From IMG/VR virus record IMGVR_UViG_3300010885_083984, positions 1-30,500 of that record: a DNA stretch of 30,500 nucleotides; one strand, 5' to 3'. The position numbers were made by a program, and so were the translations under genes. Positions within the stretch are counted from its first letter, which is position 1. The number at the start of each line of letters is the position of its first letter. Below the pieces are notes generated by a model. That model saw nothing but the letters and a program-made list of their open reading frames with translations. It ran no database searches and was not told where the DNA came from. Origin of the DNA: a virus. This document shows, one piece after another, positions 473-29,318 of this stretch.

Positions 473-1395
473 AATGTTTGATAACTGGAGCATCAGGTCT
501 TTTAGGCAGTGAAGTTTTTAAGATTTGTAAGAATTCTATACCTCTCTCTTCCAAAGATGCAGATCTTAGTAAGACTGCATCTATTATAGAAAAAATTGCG
601 ATAGAAGAAAAAATAGATACAGTCGTACATTGCGCCGCACGAGTAGGCGGCGTGAAGGCAAATAGTGACCACGTTGCCGACTTTTTTGATGACAATGTTA
701 GAATGAATATGAATGTGCTTGATGTGTGTAAGAAATTGAATCTCAAGCTAATATCAGTTTTATCAACATGTATATACCCAGATAAAGATCATGTAACTTA
801 TCCGCTTACTGAAGACCAGCTTCATCTTGGCCCGCCTCACCCGTCAAATTTTGGCTATGCTTATGCCAAAAGAATGTTAGACGTGCAAAGTCGAGCGTAT
901 AGACAACAATTTAACTCAAAATTCATAACAGTCGTTCCTAATAGTCTATATGGGCCAAATGACAATTATGACTTGAGCGCAGGTCATGTCATCCCGGCAA
1001 CTATAAGAAAATTTCACGAAGCGATGATTAATAATGATAATCATGTTAAAATCTGGGGAACAGGAAATCCTCTTAGAGAATTCACTTATTCAAAAGATGC
1101 TGCTTCGATCATTTTGTGGCTTGCAGAGAACTACGACGGCATTGACCCAATAAACATCGGAAATCCAGAGCAAGTTTCAATAAAAGATCTTGCATTTCTA
1201 ATAGGTCATGAAATAGGATTTAAAGGTGACATAGTTTTTGATTCATCTAAACCTGATGGACAGTTCAAAAAGCCTTCGTCAAACAAGCGCCTACTAGAAT
1301 TAGGATGGAAAGGTTCTTATACACCACTTGAGAAAGGTCTAAAAGAATCTATAAGCTGGTTTAAAAATTCATATCCAAATATTAGAGGTGTTTAA
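469..1395 (+). CDS. fcl: GDP-L-fucose synthase (GDP-4-keto-6-deoxy-D-mannose 3,5-epimerase/4-reductase)
   Basis: A 308-residue short-chain dehydrogenase of the size usual for Fcl/WcaG. The N-terminal ITGASGLLG is the NAD(P)-binding GxxGxxG loop. The motif LSTCIYP gives Ser99 and Cys101, followed by Tyr130-x3-Lys134 (YAYAK) and His173 in SAGHVIP. The spacing of Ser, Cys, Tyr, Lys and His matches the catalytic set known for the E. coli enzyme, where it performs both C3/C5 epimerisation and C4 reduction with NADPH. The product would be GDP-L-fucose in the cytoplasm. Its substrate is the product of the Gmd encoded at 2726. The ATG lies in a 4-bp ATGA overlap with the previous gene, with AGGAA upstream. 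A related GDP-sugar reductase is the main alternative. Confidence 0.88.
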   Translation: MKCLITGASGLLGSEVFKICKNSIPLSSKDADLSKTASIIEKIAIEEKIDTVVHCAARVGGVKANSDHVADFFDDNVRMNMNVLDVCKKLNLKLISVLSTCIYPDKDHVTYPLTEDQLHLGPPHPSNFGYAYAKRMLDVQSRAYRQQFNSKFITVVPNSLYGPNDNYDLSAGHVIPATIRKFHEAMINNDNHVKIWGTGNPLREFTYSKDAASIILWLAENYDGIDPINIGNPEQVSIKDLAFLIGHEIGFKGDIVFDSSKPDGQFKKPSSNKRLLELGWKGSYTPLEKGLKESISWFKNSYPNIRGV

Positions 1396-2025
1396 ATGGT
1401 CTATATGAGCCCAACAGAAATCGCAGGAATAGTAGGTGGTATCAATGGTGTCATTCATGTAGGTGCACACCTCGCTGAAGAGCATGGTCCATACTGTGAT
1501 GCAGGAATACAAAAAAGAGTCTGGATTGAAGCCAACCCTACTCTTGCAAGTAAAATATCTGATACTTTTTCTCAAAGTAGCAACGATCTAGTAATTTGTG
1601 CAACAATTACAGATAAAGACGATGAGGATGTTGTTTTGAATATTTCCAATAATGAACAATGCTCATCAGTGTTAAACAGAATGTCGTCACCGAAGCATTA
1701 TCATGACATAATTTACGTTGATAAGCATGTGAGCAAATCTAAAACGCTTAGCACCATCTTAGGTCAAATTCCTAATTCTGAAATGTATGACATGATAAAC
1801 TTGGACATCCAGGGCATTGAATTAAAAGCGATAAAGGGTTTAGGCGCAAAACTCAAGCAATTTAAAGTTGTCTACACAGAAGTCAACAATCAAGAATTCT
1901 TATATGAGGGTACTGATCTTGTCAATGAGATTGACGAGTATCTTGTAATTAATGGATTTTCAAAGCACGGAGAGAAAATATTCGATACAGGATGGGGAGA
2001 TGCGCTCTACATTAAGTGGTTTTGA
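1396..2025 (+). CDS. FkbM-family methyltransferase (first of a tandem pair)
   Basis: A 209-residue protein with VIHVGAHLAEE as the SAM-binding glycine loop (residues about 20-30), VWIEANP as the acidic strand-2 motif, and MINLDIQGIELKAIKGL (about 133-149), which is the characteristic FkbM central segment. The C-terminal KVVYTEVNNQEFLYEG also fits the family. FkbM enzymes O-methylate sugars or polyketides; here a glycan or nucleotide-sugar substrate is inferred from the neighbours. The ATG directly follows the TAA of fcl with no gap. A second in-frame ATG at 1405 could be used instead. It differs clearly in sequence from the FkbM gene that follows, so the pair is not a recent duplication. Confidence 0.75.
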   Translation: MVYMSPTEIAGIVGGINGVIHVGAHLAEEHGPYCDAGIQKRVWIEANPTLASKISDTFSQSSNDLVICATITDKDDEDVVLNISNNEQCSSVLNRMSSPKHYHDIIYVDKHVSKSKTLSTILGQIPNSEMYDMINLDIQGIELKAIKGLGAKLKQFKVVYTEVNNQEFLYEGTDLVNEIDEYLVINGFSKHGEKIFDTGWGDALYIKWF

Positions 2026-2028
2026 GTT

Positions 2029-2670
2029 ATGAAAGAATTACAAATTTCAAAATTTTTGATACATGATCAAGATCCTGTGTTTTTTGATGTTGGAGCAAAT
2101 GATGGAAATTTTACGCTAGAAATCTTGTCATTATTTCCAGATTCGTTAGTTTATGCATTTGAACCCGATAGAGACTGTAGAATATTTCAATTAGAAGATG
2201 ATCGTATAAAATCATTTAATTACGCTCTTTCAAATGACTGTGTTGATAAAAATCTTTACAAACCTCTAAACAATAGGTCTCATAATTCATTTCATGTGCG
2301 ACCCCATTTTTTAGATTTGACTTACACAACAACCTCTAGCGTCTGCACGACTGTTGATGAATTTGTGCGAGAAAACAAGATCAACAAGATCAGTTATCTT
2401 AAAATCGATACAGAAGGTCATGAGCTTGAAGTACTGACCGGAGCCCAGCAATCATTTGAGGATAAATTAATCAAGGCAGGACAATTTGAATACGGCGGCA
2501 CATGGAAAGAAAAAGGACTAAAATTTTCTGATGCTTTTGATTTCCTAGCACTTCTTAATTATGAAATTTATGATCTGGAAAACATCGGAACTGAACCGAT
2601 TACTAGAAATTTTCAAGATACATGGTCCTACAAGAATTTTTACTTTGCTATTCGAAATTCTCAAATTTAG
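2029..2670 (+). CDS. FkbM-family methyltransferase (second of a tandem pair)
   Basis: A 213-residue protein. FFDVGANDGNFTLEIL (about residues 17-32) is the SAM loop, VYAFEPD is the strand-2 acidic motif, and YLKIDTEGHELEVLTGA (about 123-139) is the most diagnostic FkbM segment. The conserved order TTVDEFV before this block also matches the family. The start lies 3 bases after the previous stop with only a weak GAG upstream, so translation probably depends on ribosomes from the preceding gene. It is likely a sugar O-methyltransferase that caps or decorates the glycan made by the cassette; the exact acceptor is unknown. It is followed by one of the few real gaps in this region. Confidence 0.82.
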   Translation: MKELQISKFLIHDQDPVFFDVGANDGNFTLEILSLFPDSLVYAFEPDRDCRIFQLEDDRIKSFNYALSNDCVDKNLYKPLNNRSHNSFHVRPHFLDLTYTTTSSVCTTVDEFVRENKINKISYLKIDTEGHELEVLTGAQQSFEDKLIKAGQFEYGGTWKEKGLKFSDAFDFLALLNYEIYDLENIGTEPITRNFQDTWSYKNFYFAIRNSQI

Positions 2671-2683
2671 GTTAGAATTTACT

Positions 2684-2711
2684 AAATTATAGTTACCTGT
2701 TCCTATAATTT
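2684..2711. repeat. Inverted repeat in the gap before gmd
   Basis: AAATTATAG (2684-2692) and CTATAATTT (2703-2711) form a perfect 9-bp inverted repeat with a 10-base spacer. The octamer GTTAGAAT also occurs directly repeated at 2671-2678 and 2712-2719, flanking the palindrome. The stem is almost all A/T and no T-run follows it, so it does not look like a strong intrinsic terminator. An operator for a dimeric regulator or a weak RNA hairpin is possible. The right arm overlaps a TATAAT hexamer. Confidence 0.5.
2704..2709 (+). promoter_or_regulatory. Possible -10 element (TATAAT) for gmd
   Basis: A perfect TATAAT sits 16 bases before the gmd ATG, inside a 55-bp gap between convergently unlinked reading frames on the same strand. 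Initiation about 7 bases downstream would give a leader of roughly 10 bases, and no Shine-Dalgarno sequence is present. I found no convincing -35 box at the usual distance, so a host sigma-70 promoter is not certain. The element is embedded in the right arm of the inverted repeat, so the same bases could instead be an operator. Confidence 0.35.
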
Positions 2712-2725
2712 GTTAGAATGTAGTT

Positions 2726-3700
2726 ATGAAAACAGCATTAATAACAGGTGTTACAGGGCAAGACGGATCATATCTGGCCGAGCTTCTCCTAGAAAAAGGG
2801 TATCGTGTAATCGGCATGAAGCGTAGAACTTCGCTTCTAGCAACAGATAGAATTGATCATGTTCTAACACACCCTAATTTTCAATTAGTTTACGGTGCGA
2901 TGAGCGATTCTGGATCTTTCTACAGGCTTTTTGCAAACCAAAAGTTTGATGAAGTCTATAATCTTGCTGCACAATCTCACGTTCGTGTTTCATTTGATGT
3001 TCCAGAAGAGACAGCTGATGCCGTGGCAATGGGCCCACTTCGGTTGCTTGAATGTATTAAAACCATGCAACCCAATTGTCGCTTCTACCAAGCATCGTCA
3101 TCAGAGATGTTTGGCGACAATCCAGAACATCCGCAGAACGAGGAGACCCGACTTATGCCGGCTTCTCCCTATGCCTGCGCAAAGGTCTTTGCGCACGGTC
3201 TCACTCGCAACTACCGTGAAGGATACGGCACCCACGCATCATCAGGTATCCTCTTCAACCACGAGAGTCCTCGTCGCGGCGAAACATTTGTCACTCGTAA
3301 GATCACACTTGCAGCAGCACGAATTAAACTCGGTTTACAAGATAAGATCACACTCGGCAATCTTGACGCGCTCCGCGATTGGGGATATGCGAAAGACTAC
3401 GTTGAGGCAATGTGGCTCATGCTCCAGCAGGAAAAGCCGGATGACTATGTAGTTGCAACAGGAGAAACGCATACAGTTCGCGAGTTCCTAGATGAAGTTT
3501 TCCAGATTGCAGGCCTTGATGTCGATAAGCATCTTGTCATTGATGATAGGTTAAAAAGGCCACATGAAGTGCCATGGCTTGAAGGTGACTGTACAAAAGC
3601 TAGAGAGAAGCTTGGTTGGGTTCCAAAAACAACGTTTAAAGGTCTTGCAAAGCTTATGTACGAGTCTGATTTTGAGAATTTGAAAAATTTTCATGTTTAA
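2726..3700 (+). CDS. gmd: GDP-mannose 4,6-dehydratase
   Basis: A 324-residue enzyme that dehydrates GDP-mannose to GDP-4-keto-6-deoxymannose, the substrate of Fcl. [17 protein letters not shown] is the Gmd-specific form of the NADP-binding loop. ASSSEMFG supplies Ser125 and Glu127, and Tyr149-x3-Lys153 (YACAK) completes the catalytic set; Gmd usually has Thr at the Ser125 position and Ser is an accepted variant. [18 protein letters not shown] and [15 protein letters not shown] are further family signatures. It is slightly shorter than bacterial Gmd (about 370 residues). No Shine-Dalgarno sequence precedes the ATG. The middle of the gene (about 3100-3300) is much richer in G+C than the surroundings. 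Identification is firm. Confidence 0.95.
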
Positions 3701-4565
3701 GCGATATACAAAAAAAAGAAATCAAGACGCATTTTTTCCATTTCTCAATGAGCTGTACAATTTAATACCAGAAAATAATCGGGATAGAATTTATTGTGCA
3801 GATTCTTTTGAAGAGATGGTAAATCATGATTGGATTAGTTCGATAACAGATGAAAAAATTGTCATTCTTGCGCTGGGGTGTGAAAATCACATAGATTTAA
3901 GTGAAATGTATAGATTTGACAATGTTAAATCAATCATTCGTTGCTATCCTCAAATCAGTGAATACAGGCCATGGCCGCCAATGAATTATCAAATTAAGAA
4001 TGGAATACCTGTCATACCAGTTAATGAAGATCCAAGAACAATTGTGATACCTATAGCACCCAATGTCATGGAAGAAAAATTAAATGTTTCTAAGCGTATT
4101 AGGCTAAACTTCACAGGCCAAGTGTCTGGATCAAGATTGGCAAAATTACAGAAGCTTTCAAACATGTTTACTGATCAAGACATGATAACTGTTTTTGAAG
4201 GTTGGGGTGCGCTCAGATCACTTACAAACGACTCAGAAGGCGTGTTATCTCATGAAAAATATATTAAAAACATTGCAGAATCTAAGGTATCTCTTTGTTT
4301 TGCAGGTCACAGCCACGAAACTCATAGACACATTGAATCTGCAATGCAAGGTTGCGCAATCGTAACAGACCCACTTCCAGACATAGACTTTTATAATGCG
4401 GCACCCTTTGTAAGGACAATTGGATGGGATCAATCACACATAGAATTTGCAATTAAGAATTACGATCAATTAGGAAAAGCATCATATGATTGGTATAATG
4501 ACTATGCAAGTCCAAATGCAGTCAGCAAGAGGATTTGCAACGAATTGGAGAGAGTAGGAATATGA
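3693..4565 (+). CDS. Exostosin-like glycosyltransferase
   Basis: A 290-residue protein overlapping the end of gmd by 8 bp. The C-terminal half carries [18 protein letters not shown] (about residues 138-155), and from Cys202 the segment [20 protein letters not shown] followed by [13 protein letters not shown]. This pattern, a nucleotide-sugar-binding loop followed by E-S/A-x-x-x-G-C-I/V-P/T-like residues, resembles the C-terminal GT-B domain of exostosin/GT47-like and related family 1 transferases. No signal peptide or membrane segment is visible, so it should act in the cytoplasm or at the inner face of the membrane. Donor and acceptor cannot be read from sequence; GDP-fucose and UDP-sugars are candidates given the neighbours. 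Confidence 0.6.
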
Positions 4566-5533
4566 GTATTGCTGTAATCGGTCAGGGTTTTGTGGGCGGA
4601 AGTCTGACAACAGTGTTTTCTGAACGTGGCGAAACAGTTTATGTTTATGATAAAGCTGGGAAGGTCGCACCAGGCGGTGTACCAACCTTCACGCGGCAGA
4701 TCACAAGAGATGTTGTTACTCCGGGATCAATCGCCGAGTTTGTAAGAGAGTGTGAAGGAACTTCGGGATTTTCAGGCATCTATTTTGTTTGCGTACCCAC
4801 ACCGATGTACGAGGATGGATCGCCAGATGTTTCAATCGTTTTAGACGTTCTAGAGCTACTAGCTGCAGCACCATATGGTTCAGATTCTCCAGAAAGAATT
4901 GCCGTTATTAAATCAACAGTTCCACCGGGATCAACACAAAGATGGAATCAAATCTTCAATGATCGAGGCCTACATGTTGTCTTTAACCCAGAGTTCTTAA
5001 CAGAAGCAAATGCTGTGAATGATATGCGCGAGCAGAATCGAATCGTTCTTGGCGGACCTCGACCCTATATAAACACCGTGCGAAATGTTTTCATGCGTGC
5101 ATTTCCTAAAGTTCCGATCATCAAAACAAGTTCATCTACAGCGGAGATGGTCAAGTATGCTACAAACTGCCTTCTTGCAGTAAAAGTTGCATTTGCAAAT
5201 GAAGTTGCGCAGATTTGTGAAGAACTTGATAAAGATGGTCTCAATATAGATTATGACAAAGTTGTAGAGTACATAAAATTTGATAAAAGATTGGGTGAAA
5301 CACACTGGTCTGTGCCAGGACCTGTTCCAACTCATGACGGTAGGTACGTTAGAGGTTTTGGAGGACATTGTTTTCCAAAAGATATCAATGCCCTCATGAG
5401 TGTTGCAAAGCATTACAATATCAAGCCTACTGTATTGCAAGCGGCCTGGGATAAGAATCTTGAAGTAAGGCCGCCCAATGATAGAGATTGGGAACACCAA
5501 CACGGCCGTGCTGTTAGTAAGAGGAGGCAGTGA
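4562..5533 (+). CDS. UDP-glucose/GDP-mannose dehydrogenase-like enzyme lacking the C-terminal domain
   Basis: A 323-residue protein with IAVIGQGFVGGSL as the NAD loop, FNPEFLTEANAVND as the family motif of the central domain, SSTAEMVKYATNCLLAVKVA as the long central helix, and Cys270 in FGGHCFPKD, the nucleophile in nucleotide-sugar dehydrogenases. Only about 53 residues follow the Cys, against about 140 in typical enzymes, so most of the C-terminal nucleotide-sugar-binding domain is missing. It would oxidise UDP-glucose to UDP-glucuronate (or GDP-mannose to the uronate). The ATG at 4562 overlaps the previous stop (ATGA) and follows GGAGAGAGTAGGA; a further upstream ATG at 4535 is rejected because the Rossmann strand begins at MSIAV. 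Confidence 0.8.
   Translation: MSIAVIGQGFVGGSLTTVFSERGETVYVYDKAGKVAPGGVPTFTRQITRDVVTPGSIAEFVRECEGTSGFSGIYFVCVPTPMYEDGSPDVSIVLDVLELLAAAPYGSDSPERIAVIKSTVPPGSTQRWNQIFNDRGLHVVFNPEFLTEANAVNDMREQNRIVLGGPRPYINTVRNVFMRAFPKVPIIKTSSSTAEMVKYATNCLLAVKVAFANEVAQICEELDKDGLNIDYDKVVEYIKFDKRLGETHWSVPGPVPTHDGRYVRGFGGHCFPKDINALMSVAKHYNIKPTVLQAAWDKNLEVRPPNDRDWEHQHGRAVSKRRQ
5523..5527 (+). promoter_or_regulatory. Strong ribosome binding site deciding the epimerase start
   Basis: GGAGG within GAGGAGG lies 5 bases before the ATG at 5533 and only 2 bases before an in-frame GTG at 5530. The spacing favours the ATG, which overlaps the previous TGA by one base. Confidence 0.7.
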
Positions 5534-6417
5534 TGAGAGCACTTGTAACAGGCGCAGCAGGATTTATTGGTTCGCACATCGTCGACGCTTTAATTGCGCG
5601 CGGCGATGAAGTAATCTGTATTGATGACGAGTCTGCTCCACAGAACAGCACGTTCTACTGGCACCAAGATGCGATCAATGTCATTGGTGATATCAGAGAT
5701 GTGAATTTAAGAAGGCATTATGAAAATGTTGACGTTGTTTTCCATCTTGCAGCAAGATCCAGAATTCAACCAACTGTCAATAATCCTTCTGAATGTTTTT
5801 CCGTTAATGTACTTGGAACGCAGGAAGTGCTTGAAGCAAGTCGAATTGCAGGTGTCAAGAGAATTGTCTACTCAGCATCATCTTCCTATTACGGGCACGC
5901 ATCTTTGCCGCCATTTGTCGAATATGCACCGAAAGGTTGTGCGACGCCTTACTCACTCTCTAAGTGGCAAGGTGAAGAAGTTTGTGATCTCTACACAAAG
6001 TTATACGGACTTTCTACAGTGTCTCTTCGTTACTTTAACGTGTATGGCCCGCGCGAACCGTTGAAGGGTGAGTATGCTCCCGTTATGGGACTATTTAGAC
6101 GTCAAAAGGCGGCAGGACAGCCGATGACTATTGTTGGTAATGGAAAACAGCGCAGAGACTTTACGCATATTAGCGATGCAGTTGAGGCAAACTTGCTTGC
6201 TGCAGAAAAAATTGGTGTGACAGGTCCTATCAATATTGGAACAGGGCGTAACTATTCTATTAATGATCTTGCAGTTATGATTGGCGGAGACAGACTTTAT
6301 GTTGCTGAACGTGTTGGTGAAACTCGAGAAACGCTCGCCAATAACATGAGAGCTCGTGAGGAGCTCGGCTGGGTACCAAAGGTAAGTCTAGAAGATTATC
6401 TCAATGAAAATAAGTGA
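5533..6417 (+). CDS. NAD-dependent UDP-sugar 4-epimerase-like enzyme
   Basis: A 294-residue extended short-chain dehydrogenase. ALVTGAAGFIGSHIVDALI is the NAD loop, SASSSYYG (114-121) holds the catalytic Ser region, Tyr140-x3-Lys144 (YSLSK) is the catalytic pair, and LRYFNVYGPREP (about 167-178) is the substrate-binding segment typical of UDP-glucose, UDP-GlcNAc and UDP-glucuronate 4-epimerases. The RRDFTHISDAVEA motif also fits that group. Because it directly follows a UDP-glucose dehydrogenase-like gene, UDP-glucuronate to UDP-galacturonate is an attractive reaction, but GalE- or WbpP-type activity is equally open. It is a little shorter than most family members (about 310-340 residues). 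Start chosen by the strong ribosome site. Confidence 0.8.
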   Translation: MRALVTGAAGFIGSHIVDALIARGDEVICIDDESAPQNSTFYWHQDAINVIGDIRDVNLRRHYENVDVVFHLAARSRIQPTVNNPSECFSVNVLGTQEVLEASRIAGVKRIVYSASSSYYGHASLPPFVEYAPKGCATPYSLSKWQGEEVCDLYTKLYGLSTVSLRYFNVYGPREPLKGEYAPVMGLFRRQKAAGQPMTIVGNGKQRRDFTHISDAVEANLLAAEKIGVTGPINIGTGRNYSINDLAVMIGGDRLYVAERVGETRETLANNMRAREELGWVPKVSLEDYLNENK

Positions 6418-6438
6418 GTGTATGCATATTATTAAATT

Positions 6439-7248
6439 GTGACTACATTCCCAACTGGCAAACCACATATCTCTTTTTCTGAACTCAAAAATTATCATGA
6501 GTGTGGCTGGCGACACAAGCTTCTCTATGTCGACAAGATTAATCTTTCAAAGCCTAGTGAAAATCTAGAATTTGGCACAGCGGTCCACGCTGAATGTGAG
6601 GATTATCTTAAAAACAGGACAATGAATCCTGAGCGTCTTGAAGCAGAGATTAGAAAGGTTTGGCAAGAAAAATCATTAGCAAATGTTGATTCTTGGGTCA
6701 AAGAAGGCAAGCAGATCCTTGAAGACGTGCCCAAGTTTATGGATGAAACATTCCCAGAATGGGCCTGCATTTCTGCAGAACATGAGCTCTATGAAGAAAT
6801 TGTAGGTCATGACATAAAATTCAAAGGTTTTGTTGATGCCATGATCAAAGCTAAAAATAAGCGCGGTCAATGGTGTCTGTGGATTCTTGACTGGAAGACG
6901 TCAGGACCACGTGGATGGAGTGCCGATAAAAGAAGAAATGTTCTTGTTCAATCACAGCCTGTGCTTTATAAGAATTACTGCTCACAGAAATTTCAAGTCG
7001 ATCCAAAAGACATCAAATGCGGTTTTGTCTTACTGAAGCGCGGACTAAAGCCTGGGAAAGCCTGTGAGTATATCGATGTCTCAGCAGGCCCGAAGACATT
7101 AGAGAAATCAGATAAGCTTGTATCATCAATGATCAACGGCGTCAAGACAGGAAAGTTTATCAAGAATAGGTCTTCATGCAAATTCTGTGATTTCAAAAAT
7201 ACAGAACATTGTCAAGGTTCAAGTGAGTTCGAGCCTTTTACCAAATGA
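6439..7248 (+). CDS. PD-(D/E)XK nuclease with a probable Fe-S cluster (Cas4/AddB/RecB-like)
   Basis: A 269-residue protein. ISFSELKNYHECGWRHKLLY places the first Cys (Cys22) as in the Y-x-x-C start of AddB/Cas4-type nucleases. GTAVHA (His50), Asp133 in GFVDAMI, Asp151-Trp-Lys153 in ILDWKTS and QPVLY (173-177) are the RecB-nuclease motifs in order. C-terminal Cys247-x2-Cys250-x7-Cys258 would complete a four-Cys iron-sulphur site. It is likely an exonuclease in phage DNA replication or recombination, or in host DNA breakdown. It begins with GTG; a TAA lies just upstream in frame, so no earlier standard start exists, and no Shine-Dalgarno is visible. It is the only DNA-processing gene inside the sugar cassette. 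Confidence 0.82.
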   Translation: MTTFPTGKPHISFSELKNYHECGWRHKLLYVDKINLSKPSENLEFGTAVHAECEDYLKNRTMNPERLEAEIRKVWQEKSLANVDSWVKEGKQILEDVPKFMDETFPEWACISAEHELYEEIVGHDIKFKGFVDAMIKAKNKRGQWCLWILDWKTSGPRGWSADKRRNVLVQSQPVLYKNYCSQKFQVDPKDIKCGFVLLKRGLKPGKACEYIDVSAGPKTLEKSDKLVSSMINGVKTGKFIKNRSSCKFCDFKNTEHCQGSSEFEPFTK

Positions 7249-7271
7249 TTTAGGTGATATTATTATCAAGC

Positions 7272-8519
7272 ATGAGTAACAAATATAAAGTTTTAGTTCT
7301 TTCTGATCACGCACTATCAACGTCAGGCGTTGGAACACAGACACGCCATTTGATAAACGGTCTTCTTAAGAAGGGCTGTTGGTCATTTAGGCAGTTTGGT
7401 GCAGCAATGAAGCATTCTGACTATAGAACGATTATGGTCAATGAAGACTTCATCATTAAGCCTATTGATGGTTTTGGAAATAGAGACTTAATTAGAGTCA
7501 CTTTGGCAGCTGAAAAGCCTGATCTGATTTTGATATTTACGGATCCAAGATTTTTTACTTGGCTGTTCGAGATGGAAGATGAAATTCACCAAATGTGCCC
7601 AATTGCATGGTGGCATGTTTGGGACAACGCTCCATTTCCAGAATTCAATGATCCATTTTACCAGTCTACTGACTTGATAAATTGCCATTCACACATGACA
7701 TATGAATTGATTAAGGATCATTATCCAGGAAAAGTTAATTTCATACCACATGCAATACCTCCCGATCTCTATTTTCCGCTAGATAGACACGTGAGAGATT
7801 CTTTTAAGAAGAATATCTTGGGTGAGAATAGATTCGATCACTTTACCGGTATTTGGGTTAATAGAAACGCAAAGAGAAAGCGCCCGGGCGACGTTCTTCT
7901 TTCATGGAAGATATTCCTCGATGAGCTCCAGGCAAAGCATGGTCATAGAAAGGCAACTCTAATCATGCACACTGACCCACTTGACCAAGAGGGACCAAAT
8001 CTACTTGCGACTGCTGAAATGCTGAAGATATCTGACAGTGTCATGTTCTCAAAGGAAAGAATAGAATTTGACAAGATGAATGTGCTCTATAACATTTCAG
8101 ACTTCTGCATGAATATAAGCTTCGCTGAAGGCTTTGGCCTTGGCACACTTGAGGCAATGAATTCAGGCACACCAATCATTGCGGCTAAGACGGGTGGCCT
8201 AACGCGTCAAGTTGTTGATCATCGAGATGGATCAGAAAATGGCGTTGCATTAGATATTGATACCAAGACACTCGTCGGCAGTCAGGCAGTTCCGTACATT
8301 CTTGAAGATTATGTAAATTGTGAGAATATTGCAAAAGGAGTCATGAAGCTATTTGAGACTCCTACTGCTGAAAGAGAATTACTTCGTAAGAAAGTTAGAA
8401 ACTATGCGTTAAGTGAGTTTTCGTATCAACAAACTATTGATGATTGGCATGAGACTGCTTTGAAACTTGTGCAAACCTGGAAAGAAAATCACAATCCATG
8501 GGAAATCAGGAGCTTTTAA
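7272..8519 (+). CDS. GT4-type glycosyltransferase (first of a tandem pair)
   Basis: A 415-residue GT-B glycosyltransferase. The N-terminal half begins with VLVLSDHALSTSGVGTQTRH, an acceptor-side loop with the glycine-rich turn usual in GT4. The C-terminal half has GIWVNRNAKRKRPGDVL, where the donor domain begins, and FAEGFGLGTLEAMNSGTPII with the E-x7-E pair (Glu286 and Glu294). A retaining transfer from a nucleotide-sugar donor to a glycan is expected. I chose the ATG at 7272 because MSNKYKVLVL starts directly at the first Rossmann strand; an in-frame GTG at 7254 would add six residues. AGGTGA at 7252-7257 may be its ribosome site. Tandem with a second, distinct GT4 gene. Confidence 0.85.
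   Translation: MSNKYKVLVLSDHALSTSGVGTQTRHLINGLLKKGCWSFRQFGAAMKHSDYRTIMVNEDFIIKPIDGFGNRDLIRVTLAAEKPDLILIFTDPRFFTWLFEMEDEIHQMCPIAWWHVWDNAPFPEFNDPFYQSTDLINCHSHMTYELIKDHYPGKVNFIPHAIPPDLYFPLDRHVRDSFKKNILGENRFDHFTGIWVNRNAKRKRPGDVLLSWKIFLDELQAKHGHRKATLIMHTDPLDQEGPNLLATAEMLKISDSVMFSKERIEFDKMNVLYNISDFCMNISFAEGFGLGTLEAMNSGTPIIAAKTGGLTRQVVDHRDGSENGVALDIDTKTLVGSQAVPYILEDYVNCENIAKGVMKLFETPTAERELLRKKVRNYALSEFSYQQTIDDWHETALKLVQTWKENHNPWEIRSF
8508..8512 (+). promoter_or_regulatory. Ribosome binding site deciding the start of the second GT4 gene
   Basis: AGGAG lies 6 bases before the ATG at 8519, which overlaps the previous TAA by one base. This favours 8519 over the in-frame ATG at 8498, which would encode seven extra residues overlapping the upstream gene. 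Confidence 0.7.
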
Positions 8520-9679
8520 TGAAGAAAGTTGTTATTAGAGCACCGTTATTGAGCATCTCTGGGTACGGTGAACACTCACGTCAAGTTTATAAGTTTTTAG
8601 CAGGCAGAGACAATCTTGAGCTTAAGACACAAATTGTCCAGTGGGGCAATACAGCGTGGGCAATTGATAGAGATGAATTCAATGGCCTTGTTGGCAAGGT
8701 CATGGACCAATCTTCTAATGACCCCAATGGCTTTGATGTTTCATTCCAGGTCCAGCTTCCAGATGAATGGGATTCTTCTCTTGCTTCATTCAATGTAGGT
8801 ATCACAGCCGGTGTTGAAACAGACATTTGTAATCCTGCATGGATAGAGTCAATTAATAAGATGAACTTGGTAATCGTTCCAAGCAACCATGTCAAAGAAA
8901 CATTCTTAAGAACTGGTAATTTGACAACAGAGGTCGTTGTAATTGGCGAATGGTATCAAGAAGAAATTGATAAAACACCTCTCGACGCTATTTTAAACTT
9001 GAAATTTGACACATCTTTCAACTTTTTAATTGTTTCACAACTTACTGCAGTTGATGACGGTGGTGATAGAAAGAACATTCTTAATACAATAAAGTGGTTC
9101 TGTGAAACATTCCAGAATGACAAGGATGTTGGCTTAATTTTGAAGACGAACTTAGGCCGAGGAACAAAGATTGACAGGACAAATGTCTACAGTATCGTCA
9201 ATGCATGTATTAGATCTTTTAGAAAGGGTCCTTACCCCAAGATACATGTTATTCACGGAAATATGACAGATCATGAAATTTCTTCTATCTACAGGCATCC
9301 ATCTGTAAAGTGTCTAATAAGCCTTACACGGGGAGAAGGTTTTGGTTTGCCAATTCTTGATGCAGCAACATCCGAACTACCCGTTATAACAACTAACTGG
9401 TCAGGCCACTTAGACTTTATGAAACTAGGGAAATTTGTTGGTATCGATTATGATCTTGTTAAGATACCAGACAACAAGATAGATAATCGTATATTTGTTC
9501 AAGATTCAAGATGGTCTAATCCTAAAGAAGAAGATTTTAAGAAGCGTCTTGCTAAATTTAGATCAAGCCACATCGTCCCAAAGCAATGGGCGGTTGAACT
9601 TTCAAAGGCTTGCAGAGAGAAATTTTCACGCAATAATATCGAAAAGATGTATGAGACAGCTTTGAGTGACATCCTATGA
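8519..9679 (+). CDS. GT4-type glycosyltransferase (second of a tandem pair)
   Basis: A 386-residue GT-B protein. VVIRAPLLSISGYGEHSRQV is the N-terminal acceptor-domain strand and glycine turn. GEGFGLPILDAATSELPVI includes Glu273 and Asp281 in the position of the E-x7-E donor motif, with the second acid replaced by Asp. The segment FNFLIVSQLTAVDDGGDRKN marks entry into the donor domain. Family members of this type transfer sugars in surface polysaccharide assembly. Sequence similarity to the previous gene is limited to the common fold, so the two probably add different sugars. No membrane segment is seen. Its TGA overlaps the start of the next gene (ATGA), linking the cassette translationally to the late region. 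Confidence 0.8.
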   Translation: MKKVVIRAPLLSISGYGEHSRQVYKFLAGRDNLELKTQIVQWGNTAWAIDRDEFNGLVGKVMDQSSNDPNGFDVSFQVQLPDEWDSSLASFNVGITAGVETDICNPAWIESINKMNLVIVPSNHVKETFLRTGNLTTEVVVIGEWYQEEIDKTPLDAILNLKFDTSFNFLIVSQLTAVDDGGDRKNILNTIKWFCETFQNDKDVGLILKTNLGRGTKIDRTNVYSIVNACIRSFRKGPYPKIHVIHGNMTDHEISSIYRHPSVKCLISLTRGEGFGLPILDAATSELPVITTNWSGHLDFMKLGKFVGIDYDLVKIPDNKIDNRIFVQDSRWSNPKEEDFKKRLAKFRSSHIVPKQWAVELSKACREKFSRNNIEKMYETALSDIL

Positions 9680-9987
9680 TTGCTTTACTAGTCATTATGA
9701 CATTAGTTTTTGCTTGCTCGACTGTCTTCTTTGCACTTCAGGCGTTTCGTCTTGGAAAAGTCGTTCTAAACGTTCAAGATGCAATTGAAGAGTCACTTGA
9801 TGTGCTAGACGAGCGTTTTAAGTCAATGTCTGAAGTTCTTGAAAAACCTGTGTTTTTTGACTCAATAGAGATCAGACAAGTGATAGCAGAAATTAGTGCG
9901 TCTCGTGATGCTGTGTTGTATGTCGCTAACCAACTTACAAACATTCAAGAGTTAGAGGCAGATGACAAAAAAGACCGTCAAGACTAA
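9676..9987 (+). CDS. Small membrane-anchored protein of unknown function
   Basis: A 103-residue protein. Residues 1-23 (IALLVIMTLVFACSTVFFAL) form one strongly hydrophobic segment with no obvious cleavage site, so it is most likely a membrane anchor. The remainder is acidic and predicted helical, with heptad-like stretches (VQDAIEESLDVLDERFKSM) that could form a coiled coil, and it ends in a charged DDKKDRQD tail. I do not recognise a family. A single N-terminal anchor plus helical domain also occurs in inner-membrane spanins, but no partner gene or lysis gene is nearby, so that is not claimed. It overlaps the GT4 gene by 4 bp and the next gene by 26 bp. Confidence 0.65.
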   Translation: MIALLVIMTLVFACSTVFFALQAFRLGKVVLNVQDAIEESLDVLDERFKSMSEVLEKPVFFDSIEIRQVIAEISASRDAVLYVANQLTNIQELEADDKKDRQD

Positions 9988-10681
9988 AAAAGTCGCCAAG
10001 AAGAATGATTTGAAGTATTACTTCAATTCTGGAACACACGCAGCAATTGTTAGATTTCAAGGCGAAAATATCCAAAAAGAAAAAGAAAAGATCTACGTAG
10101 AAGAGATTCTACCGGCTTTCAGCAAACTTGTTGAGAATTTAGTCTACATTCACGGAACAACTGCAGTCATCACTTCAGATGACTTTAAGAATGACTGTGT
10201 TACATTTCTTTATGAGACACTTAAGAAATTTGACGCATCGAGGGGCACTAAGGCATTTAGTTACTTCAATGTTGTGGCTAAGAACTGGATTATAGTCAAG
10301 AGTCGTCAAAGACAAAAGCAAGTTAATCGACATATAAGCATGGAAGATAGAGGGATCATGTCAGAAATAGAGATGGTCCCATTTGACATTTATAAGCATG
10401 ATCCACTGTCAAATACAGAAACAATGCATAATGACACTGTCGAGAAAATTGCTGATATGTTGCAAAAAGTAAAAATACGTCTTTCTTGTGAAAATGATAG
10501 AGTTTGTATGGATTCTATCATCCGGCTATTCGAGAACATAGATAATCTTGAGAGTCTAAACAAGCGTGCGATATTTGTCTACGTTAGAGACATGACTAAT
10601 TTAACGCCAAAACAGCTTTCTTCTTCAATGTCGTCAATTCGAAAGCATTATAGAGAAGTTTCAAAGATGCAAATATTCTGA
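9962..10681 (+). CDS. Putative late sigma factor, T4 gp55-like
   Basis: A 239-residue basic protein. Residues about 74-129 (DFKNDCVTFLYETLKKFD, then TKAFSYFNVVAKNWIIVKSR, then a basic RQKQVNRH) resemble sigma-70 region 2 as reduced in T4 gp55: a helix ending in F-D/N, then an A-F/Y-x-Y-F/I motif, an Asn, and a run of basic residues that would contact RNA polymerase and the -10-like element. The N-terminus (KKTVKTKKVAKK) is very basic. The C-terminal 100 residues show no domain I recognise. In T4-type phages gp55 directs the host polymerase to TATAAATA late promoters, which would fit the CTAAATA motifs downstream. AGAGG precedes the ATG. An unrelated DNA-binding protein remains possible. Confidence 0.55.
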   Translation: MTKKTVKTKKVAKKNDLKYYFNSGTHAAIVRFQGENIQKEKEKIYVEEILPAFSKLVENLVYIHGTTAVITSDDFKNDCVTFLYETLKKFDASRGTKAFSYFNVVAKNWIIVKSRQRQKQVNRHISMEDRGIMSEIEMVPFDIYKHDPLSNTETMHNDTVEKIADMLQKVKIRLSCENDRVCMDSIIRLFENIDNLESLNKRAIFVYVRDMTNLTPKQLSSSMSSIRKHYREVSKMQIF

Positions 10682-10687
10682 GGTAAC

Positions 10688-11074
10688 ATGGCAAAAAACG
10701 CTGTCGAATCGTACACAGATTCGCTTAATAAGATCAAAGAAAAAGAACGCAAAATCGTACAATTCAGTGATCTACTTCACACACTGAAAGAACTCGATGA
10801 CAAGAAAAAGATCTTGTGGTCTGAGATTTATGATAATGCTGTCACAGATCGAGAAAATGCCTCAATCCTGTTCACGGATACATTGATGCAGGTCAAAGGC
10901 AATGCAGCAAATCATAACATACTTGGTCCTGTGATTGCCAAATATCTTGAAAGAATGTCAAGAGCAAATGATCAAATTTTAAAATTGGCAGAATTGATTG
11001 CCAAAGAAGATGCAAAAGAAATTGATACAAATTCAATATTTGACAAGATTTCAAATTTTGAGGATGTAGAGTAG
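10688..11074 (+). CDS. Small helical protein of unknown function
   Basis: A 128-residue charged protein with a strong GAGGT ribosome site just upstream. It is almost entirely predicted helical: a Lys/Glu-rich first helix (SLNKIKEKERKIVQFSDLLH), a middle helix pair, and YLERMSRANDQILKLAELIA near residues 87-106. The C-terminus, SIFDKISNFEDVE, is acidic with spaced aromatic and aliphatic residues. I do not recognise the family. Its place between a sigma-like gene and the hub gene would suit either a late-transcription accessory protein or a virion assembly factor; neither is shown by sequence. Its TAG overlaps the GTG of the next gene (TAGTG). Confidence 0.6.
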   Translation: MAKNAVESYTDSLNKIKEKERKIVQFSDLLHTLKELDDKKKILWSEIYDNAVTDRENASILFTDTLMQVKGNAANHNILGPVIAKYLERMSRANDQILKLAELIAKEDAKEIDTNSIFDKISNFEDVE

Positions 11075-12249
11075 TGACACAAGACGATTTTCAAATGATG
11101 CAAGGCACGGGCCCCTTCATGTCTGCGGTTGTAATTGACTATGTTAAACAACCGCTTCAAGGTGATGATGAAGTGGCATCGTATCTAGAATATTTAAGGA
11201 TCACCGCTGGTGTAGTCCTTCCTGACGGTGCTACAAGACTTAAAAATGTCCCACGTGGTTCGCTTATAGGAAAATTGATCAATAATAACACGACAACAGC
11301 AACGATTTTTTATCCATTTTTCTCACATGTCAACATGCCTGTTAAGGCAGGCGAGGTTGTATGGGTCATTAACAACCATCCAATTGGTTGGTGGTTTACT
11401 AGAAAGACAACTGATAGAATTGCAGAAGACCCAAATTTTACACATGGGCCAAGAGCTCTGAACACATATCTTGCTGTTGATAAAATCGGAAATGCGAGAA
11501 GCGTCCAACAGACTTTCAATAGTGATCGAGCACAGATCGTCGACTATAAGAAAGTTTTTGATAGCTCAAAGTCAAACCAGGAATCATTTCAAGGTGAATC
11601 AGTTCCAAGATTTTTTACTCCCGCTGTAGATTTATCACTTGAGGGATCAAATAATTCGCTTGTGGTTCTAGGAAGTGCAGGAACATTAGGAAATAAAAGT
11701 CCTAATGCCGGGATGATTGATATCGTTGTAGGCCGAGGACAAACAGGTAGCACGTCACCTGCCGGAACATTTAGTAATGGCAGGAACTTCACAGAGAATG
11801 ACAAGACAGCACAGCTCAAAACTGCTGAAGGTGACATTGATCTTCTTAATGACCTATCAAGTGTCTATGTTTCAATGAATGACAATCTTGATGATCGTTT
11901 TGGTGTCAACATTGGAACTAATCAACCAGCAGGACCTTCAGCAGGTATTAGATCAAGTCACATTAGAATATCTGGAAGAGATGATGTTAAAATCACTGTT
12001 GAGTCTGGTGCTCAAAAGATTGGAATTGTCATCAAAGACGGCGGAGTTGTCATAACGAACGGCGACGGAGTCACTGCGACAGATGTCATCGTTGACGGGC
12101 CCACAAGTTTTCAAAATAGTCTAGCTGCAGCTTTGACAGAGCTTTCCAAGCCTCTTATTATTTTTGGATATCCTGCTGTCAATACAGAAGCCTTGATAAA
12201 CATGCTTGCTAGTAGAAGTTTTAGCTCAAAAGTAACAAAGAGTGATTAA
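11074..12249 (+). CDS. Baseplate hub/central spike protein, gp5-like OB-fold, no lysozyme domain
   Basis: A 391-residue protein starting with GTG in a TAGTG overlap. Residues about 15-115 look like the OB-fold domain of T4 gp5 and its relatives: GSLIGKLI, then FFSHVNMPVKAGEVVWVINN and GWWFTRK, a set seen in hub proteins that cap the tail tube. The central part (about 185-215) has LEGSNNSLVVLGSAG, a recurrent turn in spike proteins. Residues about 300-340 (HIRISGRDDVKITVES, IGIVIKDGGVVITNGDG) form alternating short beta strands that suit a trimeric beta-helix stalk. The T4 lysozyme domain between OB and stalk is absent. Neighbouring gp25 and gp6 genes support a baseplate role. Confidence 0.7.
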   Translation: MTQDDFQMMQGTGPFMSAVVIDYVKQPLQGDDEVASYLEYLRITAGVVLPDGATRLKNVPRGSLIGKLINNNTTTATIFYPFFSHVNMPVKAGEVVWVINNHPIGWWFTRKTTDRIAEDPNFTHGPRALNTYLAVDKIGNARSVQQTFNSDRAQIVDYKKVFDSSKSNQESFQGESVPRFFTPAVDLSLEGSNNSLVVLGSAGTLGNKSPNAGMIDIVVGRGQTGSTSPAGTFSNGRNFTENDKTAQLKTAEGDIDLLNDLSSVYVSMNDNLDDRFGVNIGTNQPAGPSAGIRSSHIRISGRDDVKITVESGAQKIGIVIKDGGVVITNGDGVTATDVIVDGPTSFQNSLAAALTELSKPLIIFGYPAVNTEALINMLASRSFSSKVTKSD

Positions 12250-12624
12250 ATGGCGCTTAACGTTGACAAGCTCATAGAGAAGTTAGATGATAAATCTAAA
12301 TTGTATTTTAATTCTGAGTATGCTCAATTTAGCGAGATATTCAAAGAAAAACTTTACAGAGTCATAGCAGAATCCGTTATTGAGCATTTTAAGGAAAATG
12401 CTGAAATTAGAGTCATAGTTGCTGGTCTTGACGGCGGATCTGCAATTTCAGGTGAATACCTGGATCGATTCGTAACACGTGGAGACCAAAGAGTTCCAGG
12501 TGGATCTTCAGACAAGCCTCCGCTCTCTGCAACATCAGGTATCCAGACTTCATCGCAGGCCGGCGCGGGCACAGAAGCATCAACGACCACTAAGGTTCTA
12601 TCGACACCTGGATTTATAGATTAG
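12250..12624 (+). CDS. Small protein of the baseplate region, function unknown
   Basis: A 124-residue protein beginning directly after the previous TAA with only a weak ribosome site. Residues 1-50 are helical and charged (LIEKLDDKSKLYFNSEYAQF), residues about 50-60 contain a hydrophobic strand (IRVIVAGL), and residues about 75-120 are low-complexity, rich in Ser, Thr, Gly and Ala, probably disordered or extended. I do not recognise a family. Its position between the hub protein and gp25 suggests a small virion or assembly protein, inferred only from context. Confidence 0.6.
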   Translation: MALNVDKLIEKLDDKSKLYFNSEYAQFSEIFKEKLYRVIAESVIEHFKENAEIRVIVAGLDGGSAISGEYLDRFVTRGDQRVPGGSSDKPPLSATSGIQTSSQAGAGTEASTTTKVLSTPGFID

Positions 12625-12642
12625 ACTCTGCACACGTAAGTT

Positions 12643-12649
12643 CTAAATA
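12643..12649 (+). promoter_or_regulatory. T4-late-like promoter motif CTAAATA before gp25
   Basis: TCTAAATA (12642-12649) differs from the T4 late consensus TATAAATA at one base. It lies in a 35-bp gap, one of the few in the virion module, and ends 10 bases before the ATG at 12660. If initiation follows the T4 geometry (motif at about -13 to -6), the transcript would start near 12655 and carry a leader of about 5 bases. The sequence from motif to ATG is closely similar to that before the gene at 23114. Confidence 0.55.
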
Positions 12650-12659
12650 ATTATGTAAT

Positions 12660-13157
12660 ATGGCAGACCCGAATACAACACCCAGCACTCCATCTCGTGC
12701 CTTCAAAAGCAAGAGTGTAATTAATGTCAGGACTGAAACCATACAGCCCGTGAGTCCAAACTTATTTGGGCTCTTGACACCTATTTCGATTGTTAAGAAT
12801 CTTGGTACGCTGTATAACACATCAACTCAAATAGACACTCAAATCATTGATAATTTTAGAAACATGTTATTGACAAATCATGGAGAAAGGCTGGTCGCAA
12901 TAGACTTCGGCGCTAACATTAATAACTTGATTTCAGAAAGATCTGCAAGGCCTGATTGGGATCAAATGGTGGCATCTCAGATCACTGCAACAACACAGAA
13001 ATACATGCCATACATAACAATCGATAGCGTTCAATCAGCAAGCCAGCCCGCAAAGAACGACGGGTTTTCACGTGTCATTGTGGCAGTCAATTTTTCAATT
13101 CCAAAGCTTGGTGTTCAAAACAAAAGAATCGAATTGACATTCACTAATCTGGGGTAA
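12660..13157 (+). CDS. 25: Baseplate wedge protein, gp25-like
   Basis: A 165-residue protein of the GPW/gp25 family. The hallmark LLTNHGERLVAIDFGANINN (about residues 70-89) matches the conserved segment in which a Gly-Glu-Arg triplet is followed by a D/P-x-F-G turn. The segment FRNMLLTN precedes it as in T4 gp25. The C-terminus forms alternating strands (VIVAVNFSI, RIELTFTNL). In T4, gp25 forms the wedge core with gp6, gp7 and gp53 and seeds sheath assembly. It is somewhat longer than T4 gp25 because of an N-terminal Pro/Ser/Thr-rich extension of about 40 residues. No Shine-Dalgarno sequence is seen; a CTAAATA motif lies just upstream. gp6 follows 2 bases after its stop. Confidence 0.92.
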   Translation: MADPNTTPSTPSRAFKSKSVINVRTETIQPVSPNLFGLLTPISIVKNLGTLYNTSTQIDTQIIDNFRNMLLTNHGERLVAIDFGANINNLISERSARPDWDQMVASQITATTQKYMPYITIDSVQSASQPAKNDGFSRVIVAVNFSIPKLGVQNKRIELTFTNLG

Positions 13158-13159
13158 CT

Positions 13160-15007
13160 ATGTCTTCTTTCAACCTAAAAAAATCACTCGCCCAGAAAAA
13201 GACCCGTTCATACCTCAATAGAGATTTTGAGAGTTTCAAGGCAGAGCTCTTGCGCTACGCAAGAACATACTATCCTGATCAAATACAGGATTTTAGTGAT
13301 GCGTCATTAGGAGGAATGTTTAACGACTTGGTGTCTTATGTCGGCGACGTAATGTCGTTTTATTCAGATCACCAGTTTAATGAAACTAACATTGAAACTG
13401 CAGTTGAGCCTAACAATATCGAAAGATTAATACGACTTTCTGGCGTAAAAATAACAGGTGCATCTCCCGCTCAAACTCTAGTTGATTTTTCTCTAAAAGT
13501 TGAAGCAGAGATTGTTGATGGAACTTACAGGCCTAAAGAAATTTATCTTCCGACAATACGTGCTGGAACTAAAATTCAAGCAAATTCTGGAATAATCTTT
13601 GAACTTACACAGGATTTAGATTTTGCTGCGAAGGTGAAGAATAAATTGATTGCAAAAGTAAGTGTTGATTCAAATGATGCGTCAGGGAACCCGAGCGTTT
13701 TTAAACTAACAAGACCCGGTCTATGTGTGTCAGGAGAGACTGTTGAAGAAAATTTCACAATTCCTAACACGTTTATACCTTTTAGAACCATCACACTTTC
13801 ACAAAACAATATTTCACAGATCATTAGAGTCATAGACTCAGATCTTAATGAATACTATGAAGTTGATACTTTAAGCAACGACGTTGTCTATAAAAAAGTC
13901 GCAAATTCTTCAAATGACGCTGAACAAGTTCCCGATAACATGTATGTTGTTCCTGCTCCTTACAGGTTTATAACAAGAACATCTTTAAATAGCGCAAATA
14001 CGACATTAGTCTTCGGATCAGGTAGGGCAGATACAATTGACGATGACGTCATTCCTGATCCTAGTGAGGTCGCACTTCCGCTTTATGGTGATAGAAAGAC
14101 ATTTTCAAAAGTTGCAATTGATCCAAACTCTCTTTTAAACACTAACAGTTTAGGAGTGTCGCCGGTCAACACGACAATCACAGTTAGATATCGTTCAGGT
14201 GGAGGAATAAATCACAATGTCGCACCTCGGACAATAAGAACTGTAGCAACACTATCGACAAAATTTCAACTTAGCGTCCCACAGGTCAAGATAAATGCCA
14301 TAAGAACATCTATTGAAGTTAATAATCCTGACGTTGCTGTTGGTGGAGAAAATATACCGACTCAAGAAGAATTTAGAAACATTGCAATAAGTTATAGAAA
14401 TTCTCAATCAAGAATAGTAACAAGGCAGGACTTGATCGCTCGAGTTTACTCTATGCCACCTAATTTTGGAAGAGTCTACCGTGTAGGTACAAGATCAAAT
14501 CCGACAAATCCGTTAAGTTCGCTGCTCTACATCGTCAGCAGAAATAGCGATGGTAACCTTGTTATCTCACCTGACTCACTTAAAAGTAACTTATCAAAAT
14601 ATCTAAATGAATTTAGACTTACTTCAGATGCTTATGACATCATTGATGCGCAAATAGTAAATTTCAAGTTTGAGTATTCGGTGGTTATTGACAATAGTGT
14701 CAATAAGGCAACGACTATTTCGACTATCAATAAAAGAATTGAGAACTATTTAAACATCAAAAATTTCCAGATAGACCAACCGATCGTGGTGAGTGATCTA
14801 CTCAATCTCATACTTAACCAAGACGGTGTAATTTCACTTGAGAGATATAGATTCACTAATTTGGCCGGCAATGTCAAAGATAGAACATACTCAGAAATTA
14901 GGTACAATCTTGGTTCAAATACGATGCGAGGCATGATAAATCCACCTGCTGGCGGAATTTTTGAATTAAAATATCCGAATTATGACATAATAGGTAACGC
15001 ACTGTGA
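13160..15007 (+). CDS. 6: Baseplate wedge protein, gp6-like (baseplate J family)
   Basis: A 615-residue protein close in length to T4 gp6 (660). Early residues RSYLNRDFESFKAELLRYAR and FSDASLGGMFNDLVSYVGDV are the characteristic N-terminal block of gp6/J-type wedge proteins, followed by NNIERLIRLSGVKI and AGTKIQANSGIIFEL, the beta-rich J domain. Residues about 410-450 (EFRNIAISYRNSQSRIVTRQ, then DLIARVYSMP) are the second conserved block, and the last third is the C-terminal dimerisation region with the helix-strand pattern seen in gp6. In the virion six wedges of gp6 heterodimers form the inner ring. GGGGT precedes the ATG. Identification rests on strong motif order and the adjacent gp25. 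Confidence 0.9.
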   Translation: MSSFNLKKSLAQKKTRSYLNRDFESFKAELLRYARTYYPDQIQDFSDASLGGMFNDLVSYVGDVMSFYSDHQFNETNIETAVEPNNIERLIRLSGVKITGASPAQTLVDFSLKVEAEIVDGTYRPKEIYLPTIRAGTKIQANSGIIFELTQDLDFAAKVKNKLIAKVSVDSNDASGNPSVFKLTRPGLCVSGETVEENFTIPNTFIPFRTITLSQNNISQIIRVIDSDLNEYYEVDTLSNDVVYKKVANSSNDAEQVPDNMYVVPAPYRFITRTSLNSANTTLVFGSGRADTIDDDVIPDPSEVALPLYGDRKTFSKVAIDPNSLLNTNSLGVSPVNTTITVRYRSGGGINHNVAPRTIRTVATLSTKFQLSVPQVKINAIRTSIEVNNPDVAVGGENIPTQEEFRNIAISYRNSQSRIVTRQDLIARVYSMPPNFGRVYRVGTRSNPTNPLSSLLYIVSRNSDGNLVISPDSLKSNLSKYLNEFRLTSDAYDIIDAQIVNFKFEYSVVIDNSVNKATTISTINKRIENYLNIKNFQIDQPIVVSDLLNLILNQDGVISLERYRFTNLAGNVKDRTYSEIRYNLGSNTMRGMINPPAGGIFELKYPNYDIIGNAL

Positions 15008-23089: not shown

Positions 23090-23096
23090 GATCACA

Positions 23097-23103
23097 CTAA
23101 ATA
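23097..23103 (+). promoter_or_regulatory. T4-late-like promoter motif CTAAATA before the gene at 23114
   Basis: ACTAAATA (23096-23103) ends 10 bases before the ATG at 23114, the same distance as the CTAAATA before gp25, and sits in a 24-bp gap between tightly packed genes. The two 23-base upstream segments agree at most positions. The T4 geometry would place initiation near 23109, giving a leader of about 5 bases with no Shine-Dalgarno sequence. Confidence 0.55.
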
Positions 23104-23113
23104 GTTATAAACA

Positions 23114-24067
23114 ATGGCTGGAATACTAGACACAAAATCAAGAATCATGGACCTCCTGATGACACAGGAGGGCAAACGTCAAATCGCTGCAGGAGATTTT
23201 AAAGTTAAGTTTGCATCATTTACCGACCGTGGGACTTTTTATGATAAAAGTTCTATTTCTGGGTCATACGATGCTGCTTTTAATCGTCTCTATTTTGAAT
23301 CTTCAAATCTGCCATTTGATTCTATTACTATCGAAGCAAACGACAAAGGAAACGTACTTCCTGTAGGAATAAATGCCTATGATGGCGGTTCAAGAATTGT
23401 TGTTTTTGACGGCAATATATCAAAGCTTGACGAAGCTCCTGTTTTAAATGCGACAGGTTCGTTGTTTGCAACATATGTTGATGACATTATTAGCAGCACA
23501 ACGGCTAACTTTAGAAAACAGACGATTATTGCATCAAGAGACCCAGTCGACAATTCAGATACGTTCACCTTGTCGACAGGATCAATAAATTTTAAGTATG
23601 ATAATCGAGGCCCAATATTGGGCGAAGACTTAATACCCACAATAGATCAAGCACCTCCGCTTTTTACGCATCGAAGATTTGCAAACTCACTTAATTTTGC
23701 CTACCTTCCCCCGGTCGTTTCTGAGAGTGGAACAACTAGCGTGTTAGGAAAATATACTGACATCAAACAGATGAACAAGTATAGCTATGCTGACATTATG
23801 AAGGAACTTGTTGGCGATAAAGCAGATGATCCTATTTGTCCCGTTAACACTGTTAGATTCGTTGAGACATCACAGACGAATGACATATGCATGCAAGCAT
23901 ATGAAATCAATGGAAATACTCTTAAGAAGCTTGACATGGTTGACTATGGTGATGTACCTGCAGATGATGATAATACATCGCGAAGAATTGTCTTTCTCGG
24001 TAAAGTGTTCATTGACTCATACCAGTCACCAACATTTGCTAACATATTTACAATAATACTGGAATAA
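23114..24067 (+). CDS. Virion structural protein of unknown family
   Basis: A 317-residue protein. The N-terminus, GILDTKSRIMDLLMTQEGKR, then QIAAGDFKVKFASFTDRGTFY, is a compact helix plus strand block that I associate with structural proteins of large tailed phages, though I cannot name its function. The centre is beta-rich (RIVVFDGNISKL, DTFTLSTGSINFKYD), and there is a cluster of three Cys near residues 237-260 (DDPICPV, NDICMQAYE). The C-terminus RRIVFLGKVFIDSYQSPTF ends in a strand and helix. It begins a probable new late transcript, indicated by the CTAAATA motif and the gap upstream, and it may drive the last three genes. Confidence 0.6.
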   Translation: MAGILDTKSRIMDLLMTQEGKRQIAAGDFKVKFASFTDRGTFYDKSSISGSYDAAFNRLYFESSNLPFDSITIEANDKGNVLPVGINAYDGGSRIVVFDGNISKLDEAPVLNATGSLFATYVDDIISSTTANFRKQTIIASRDPVDNSDTFTLSTGSINFKYDNRGPILGEDLIPTIDQAPPLFTHRRFANSLNFAYLPPVVSESGTTSVLGKYTDIKQMNKYSYADIMKELVGDKADDPICPVNTVRFVETSQTNDICMQAYEINGNTLKKLDMVDYGDVPADDDNTSRRIVFLGKVFIDSYQSPTFANIFTIILE

Positions 24068-29289: not shown

Positions 29290-29318
29290 TAGAATATACT
29301 TAAAGAAGAGTCAAACAA

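Follow-up and report, generated by a model that had tools for sequence, protein, structure and literature searches.

The window, a 30.5-kb fragment that constitutes an entire viral record, had no megablast match among known phages. Two of its plus-strand genes are considered here. The first (12660–13157) encodes a gp25-like baseplate wedge protein, recognized by the Pfam family GPW_gp25 (E-value 1.1e–5, just under the curated cut-off) and by a PHROG baseplate wedge family (E-value 9.8e–5). The second, a virion-module gene (23114–24067), encodes a 317-aa protein of the MAGILD family. It has orthologs in ten other records, matched no family in Pfam or PHROGs, and gave an AlphaFold model too poor for use (pLDDT 41.5). 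Both genes are preceded by gaps (12625–12659, 35 nt, and 23090–23113, 24 nt, respectively), and neither start has a Shine-Dalgarno (SD) sequence at a usable distance, whereas many coupled genes do. The first-pass annotation had noted these features, together with the string CTAAATA (12643–12649 and 23097–23103, plus strand) followed in each gap by exactly 10 bases and ATGGC, and all of them were confirmed. It had further proposed that CTAAATA is a T4-type late promoter motif yielding leaders of ~5 nt.

The choice of CTAAATA as the motif did not hold. The string occurs six times on the two strands of the window (5.4 expected), i.e. at the chance level, and it is absent from the closest relative (68–80% protein identity), which has CGAC in place of CTAA and keeps ATAATTATGTAAT-ATG. 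The full comparison is CGACATAATTATGTAAT-ATG in the relative versus CTAAATAATTATGTAAT-ATG in the window. As the two share ATAATTATGTAAT but differ at CTAA, the conserved element is ATAATTA at 12647–12653 and ATAGTTA at 23101–23107, each 6 bases before ATG. The predicted promoter elements are then AATAATTA for the gp25 gene (12646–12653) and AATAGTTA for the second gene (23100–23107), and the unconserved CTAAATA copies overlap them. The earlier register was off by 4 bases; the reading was right in kind and is stronger once corrected. A third such element, ATACTTA (29296–29302, plus strand), lies 16 nt before the ATG at 29319 with an SD-like AGAAGAG in between, and belongs to the leadered class described below. 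Two other sites deserve mention. In the largest gap of the window (2689–2725), ATAGTTA stands 30 nt before a GDP-mannose dehydratase gene with TATAAT between them, possibly another promoter. At gp25, ATAATTAT (12648–12654, minus strand) is its own reverse complement, so the element there also reads as an opposite-strand promoter.

Using gp25, gp6 and the 23114 protein as queries, we retrieved about 35 related viral loci, in most of which ATANTTA or ATANATA stands directly before the ATG of the gp25 and 23114 genes. ATANWTA was found 5–8 nt before ATG in 5/6 distinct upstream sequences of 23114 orthologs. For gp25, a wider set of 111 loci provided 74 distinct upstream sequences. With d denoting the distance from the end of the element to ATG, 39 of them carry the element at d = 5–9, none at d = 10–14, and 16 at d = 15–21; the remaining 19 lack the motif, in some cases because the start was cut or mispicked. 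Nearly all of the 16 long-spaced orthologs have an SD-like leader. Across this set, gp25 occurs in both arrangements and never between them.

Because the window is the whole record, we turned to relatives to test for enrichment. Genes were called by open reading frame over the full length of 13 related records, and the nine nearest, including the window, provided 775 distinct ATG starts. As the motif had first been found before gp25 and 23114 orthologs, it was then tested on all of these starts. The distribution of ATANTTA was bimodal: no copies at d = 0–4, then 17, 6, 1, 2 and 2 copies at d = 5, 6, 7, 8 and 9, none at d = 10–13, and 48 at d = 14–26. Dinucleotide shuffles gave expectations of 0.4 at d = 5 (17 observed), 2.1 at d = 5–9 (28 observed) and 6.0 at d = 14–26 (48 observed), for counts that are not fully independent as the records share ancestry. 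The motif is biased towards the coding strand (168 versus 60), and ATANATA is rare compared with ATANTTA around the starts of the nine records. Of the 28 short-class starts, 17 belong to neither gp25 nor 23114 orthologs; among them are a ~100-aa gene present in six records and one of 242 aa present in three. Hold-out contigs around the sigma gene described below, which cover few late promoters, contained gp25 but no other short-class gene, and three non-gp25 starts in hold-out contigs had the motif at d = 10.

A motif search free of prior assumptions found only the SD when run on all starts, and SD-less starts were therefore searched apart. This gave TATAATTA with a score of 40.6 versus 20–28 in shuffles. 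On single records, the SD-less search found nothing above shuffles in G012 and one doubtful, unrelated motif in G006.

The two distance classes differ sharply in their SD content. When the SD was scored only as a core at usable spacing before ATG, it preceded none of the 28 short-class starts (d = 5–9) and 40/47 long-class starts (d = 14–26; Fisher's test, P-value 2e–14). As no upstream signal is more common in these genomes than the SD, its absence from the short class is not a habit of the host. Genes of the leadered class include those for the tail sheath, the tail tube and an Ad2-like neck protein, so that together with gp25 the element precedes virion genes, as in T4. The short class has 30 AUG and 2 GUG starts, which is only suggestive of a preference for AUG (P-value = 0.07).

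Late motifs of T4 occupy positions –13 to –6 (PMC1524935). With this spacing, d = 5 would place +1 on the A of AUG, d = 6 would give a leader of 1 nt, and d = 14 a leader of 9 nt, roughly the shortest that can hold an SD. At T4 spacing, the floor at d = 5 and the valley at d = 10–13 would both be expected if a transcript has to contain its AUG and if its leader is either missing altogether or has room for an SD. Predicted leaders are then 0–4 nt in the short class, 0 nt at its commonest spacing and 1 nt for both window genes. Transcription of the 23114 gene would start at the A at 23113, the sixth base after the motif, giving 5'-A-AUG; the predicted gp25 start is the T at 12659 by T4 spacing, or the A of the ATG at 12660. 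A T4-type late promoter right before each ATG and near-leaderless transcripts, as originally proposed, are thus retained by inference, in the ATANTTA register and not in that of CTAAATA. We give hardly any credence to the original version, in which CTAAATA is the promoter, like that of Aeromonas phage Aeh1, and the leader is ~5 nt: the string is the predicted late promoter of Aeh1 (PMC1524935), a C-containing variant of the T4 late motif matched exactly at both window sites, but its copies in the Aeh1 region tested are at least 18 nt away from ATG, its CTA is not conserved in the present clade, and leaders of 5–8 nt would fall in the empty valley. Among the 775 starts, CTAAATA occurs twice at d = 10, both times in the window itself, and once at d = 11. 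In the few relatives that have it at the leaderless position it lies 9–11 nt from ATG, following ATANTTA and not a fixed distance of 10.

One could also expect an A/U-rich stretch near AUG to act in translation, with no promoter involved. A/U-rich flanks are often seen at SD-less starts. However, the same element also occurs 14–26 nt before SD-led genes, its distance distribution is bimodal, and neither the reversed motif nor other, related A/T-rich strings show a peak at d = 5 among the 775 starts. Nor would a translation signal explain why 16 gp25 orthologs with leaders have this element too. We regard a pure translation signal as very improbable.

If the element is a promoter, a different question is which polymerase holoenzyme reads it. 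No clear –35 signal was detected by column information around 44 leadered and 28 leaderless copies. T4 late promoters likewise have no –35 element (PMC2988020), and what we find here is, as in T4, a single 8-bp, A/T-rich, –10-like TATA element before virion genes. Its consensus, (G)ATANTTA, sets it apart from TATAAATA, although its mode of action would be that of a T4 late promoter. The same leaderless mRNAs would result if it were a sigma-70-type –10 box read by the host holoenzyme. TATAAT is contained in TATAATTA, and a shared element alone does not tell which sigma factor reads it. Against this, a –35 box is not conserved, the base preceding ATA in leadered copies is G (66%) and not T, and the element extends downstream to include TTA; the host holoenzyme is, in our judgement, an improbable reader. 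The preceding G is found in 66% of leadered versus 32% of leaderless promoters (nine records, P-value 0.008), and strength or regulation may differ between the two promoter classes.

A candidate for a phage-encoded reader lies at 9962–10681 (plus strand). This gene encodes a 239-aa protein with orthologs in 11/13 other records and at least 530 relatives in IMG/VR. No sequence-level family match was found in Pfam, PHROGs or PDB. Nearly all best structural matches of its AlphaFold model (pLDDT 74.6) are sigma factors; the best Foldseek E-value is a modest 0.008. A second structural alignment with T4 gp55 (7d7c_F) reached Z 10.3 over 121 residues at 5.8 Å, and region 2 of sigmaE was matched at 2.4–2.8 Å; for a helical protein, a Z of about 10 does not settle the matter, though the list of matches is consistent. 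At the sequence level, hhalign against a gp55 profile gave a weak link (E-value 4e–4, probability 36%). We suggest that this gp55-like protein is probably a late sigma factor and the likely reader of ATANTTA promoters. No match to the gp45 clamp (PF09116) was obtained in five partial records, where the control gave no match either. The window also carries a sugar-nucleotide/glycan cassette (469–9679), immediately before the genes for the sigma candidate and the baseplate, with epimerases, GDP-mannose dehydratase, UDP-glucose dehydrogenase, two FkbM methyltransferases, two glycosyltransferases and a PD-(D/E)XK nuclease.

Overall, we consider it likely that the window belongs to a large clade of uncultured myoviruses that uses one T4-type late promoter at two distances from ATG, the short one giving leaderless mRNAs. 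The promoter would consist of one –10-like element, (G)ATANTTA, related as a variant to the TATAAATA of T4. Guided by a phage sigma factor, probably the 9962–10681 protein, RNA polymerase would begin transcription ~6 bases beyond this element. Placed 14–26 bases before ATG, it would produce a leader of 9–21 nt with an SD, as for the tail sheath, tail tube and neck adaptor. Placed 5–9 bases before ATG, it would produce a leader of 0–4 nt, and the ribosome would need to initiate at the 5' AUG of a leaderless message, as predicted for the gp25 and 23114 genes of the window with their 1-nt leaders. The promoter might be real and leaderlessness still hardly matter, if translation proceeds mainly from polycistronic mRNA that reads through from upstream genes, which run in the same direction with short gaps. 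But the two window genes have no usable SD in the DNA either, so that a read-through mRNA would offer them no advantage, and even diverged gp25 proteins have kept the short spacing. We think it unlikely that read-through is the main source of translation.

If leaderless initiation is indeed used, the clade may run two translation regimes off one late promoter, with high-copy virion proteins SD-led, other virion proteins strictly leaderless, and the choice encoded only by the promoter-to-AUG distance. We put this forward tentatively, as a possibility a little short of an even chance. Such regimes could set dosage, or could allow 70S or altered ribosomes to go on translating leaderless mRNAs late in infection. 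Leaderless starts would be notable here since the other genes of these phages mostly use SD sequences. The sharp lower limit at 5 nt would also allow the transcription start to be read from genome sequence alone, and the occurrence of gp25 in both arrangements offers a natural comparison for what leaderless initiation is good for. To our knowledge, this would be the first T4-type late system in which promoters are systematically positioned to make transcripts begin on the start codon.

The leaderless class has a further peculiarity. An N-terminal peptide resembling LRRxIxREMxxVL is found in 9/25 leaderless-class genes versus 15/451 other genes (P-value 5e–7, for a pattern chosen after the data were seen). 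It comes from records G004, G006, G009, G005 and G002 (loci L045–L082), for example at 5485–5772 of L047 (minus strand) and 16173–17150 of L070 (plus strand), and may act in targeting, with the prohead as one conceivable destination.

T4-type late promoters and leaderless phage mRNAs are each already known. T4 late promoters (TATAAATA, served by gp55/gp33/gp45) share with the present ones the features given above, including the probable sigma factor of gp55-like fold. However, in 50 kb of T4 tested, TATAAATA lies 14–28 nt before ATG (12 nt at minimum with the first base free) and never at 5–9 nt. Unlike this clade, the S-PM2 and Aeh1 regions tested also had no late-motif copies at 5–9 nt, so the leaderless arrangement was seen in none of the three. 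We found no leaderless late transcripts of T4-like phages in the open-access literature searched. Most middle and late mRNAs of the Thermus phage phiYS40 are reported to be leaderless (PMC3594737), a property that is predicted here from motif spacing; that phage and its host are unrelated to ours, and no arrangement in two classes around a T4-type late element was seen in its description.

Flavobacterium phage immuto and Microcystis phage Mel-JY01 are cultured distant relatives of the clade, with gp6 homologs at 30–32% identity and homologs of the sigma candidate at 25–28%. The immuto region differs in having no peak at 5–9 nt. We did not accept its ATANTTA copies as support, since most of them, at 14 and 28 nt, belong to an array of promoters that are nearly identical and look early. 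This array (GTTG...TATATTTAGGTATCAATAATTAAAA, 7000–14000 of the immuto locus L098) precedes many small genes and probably represents early promoters of Bacteroidota type.
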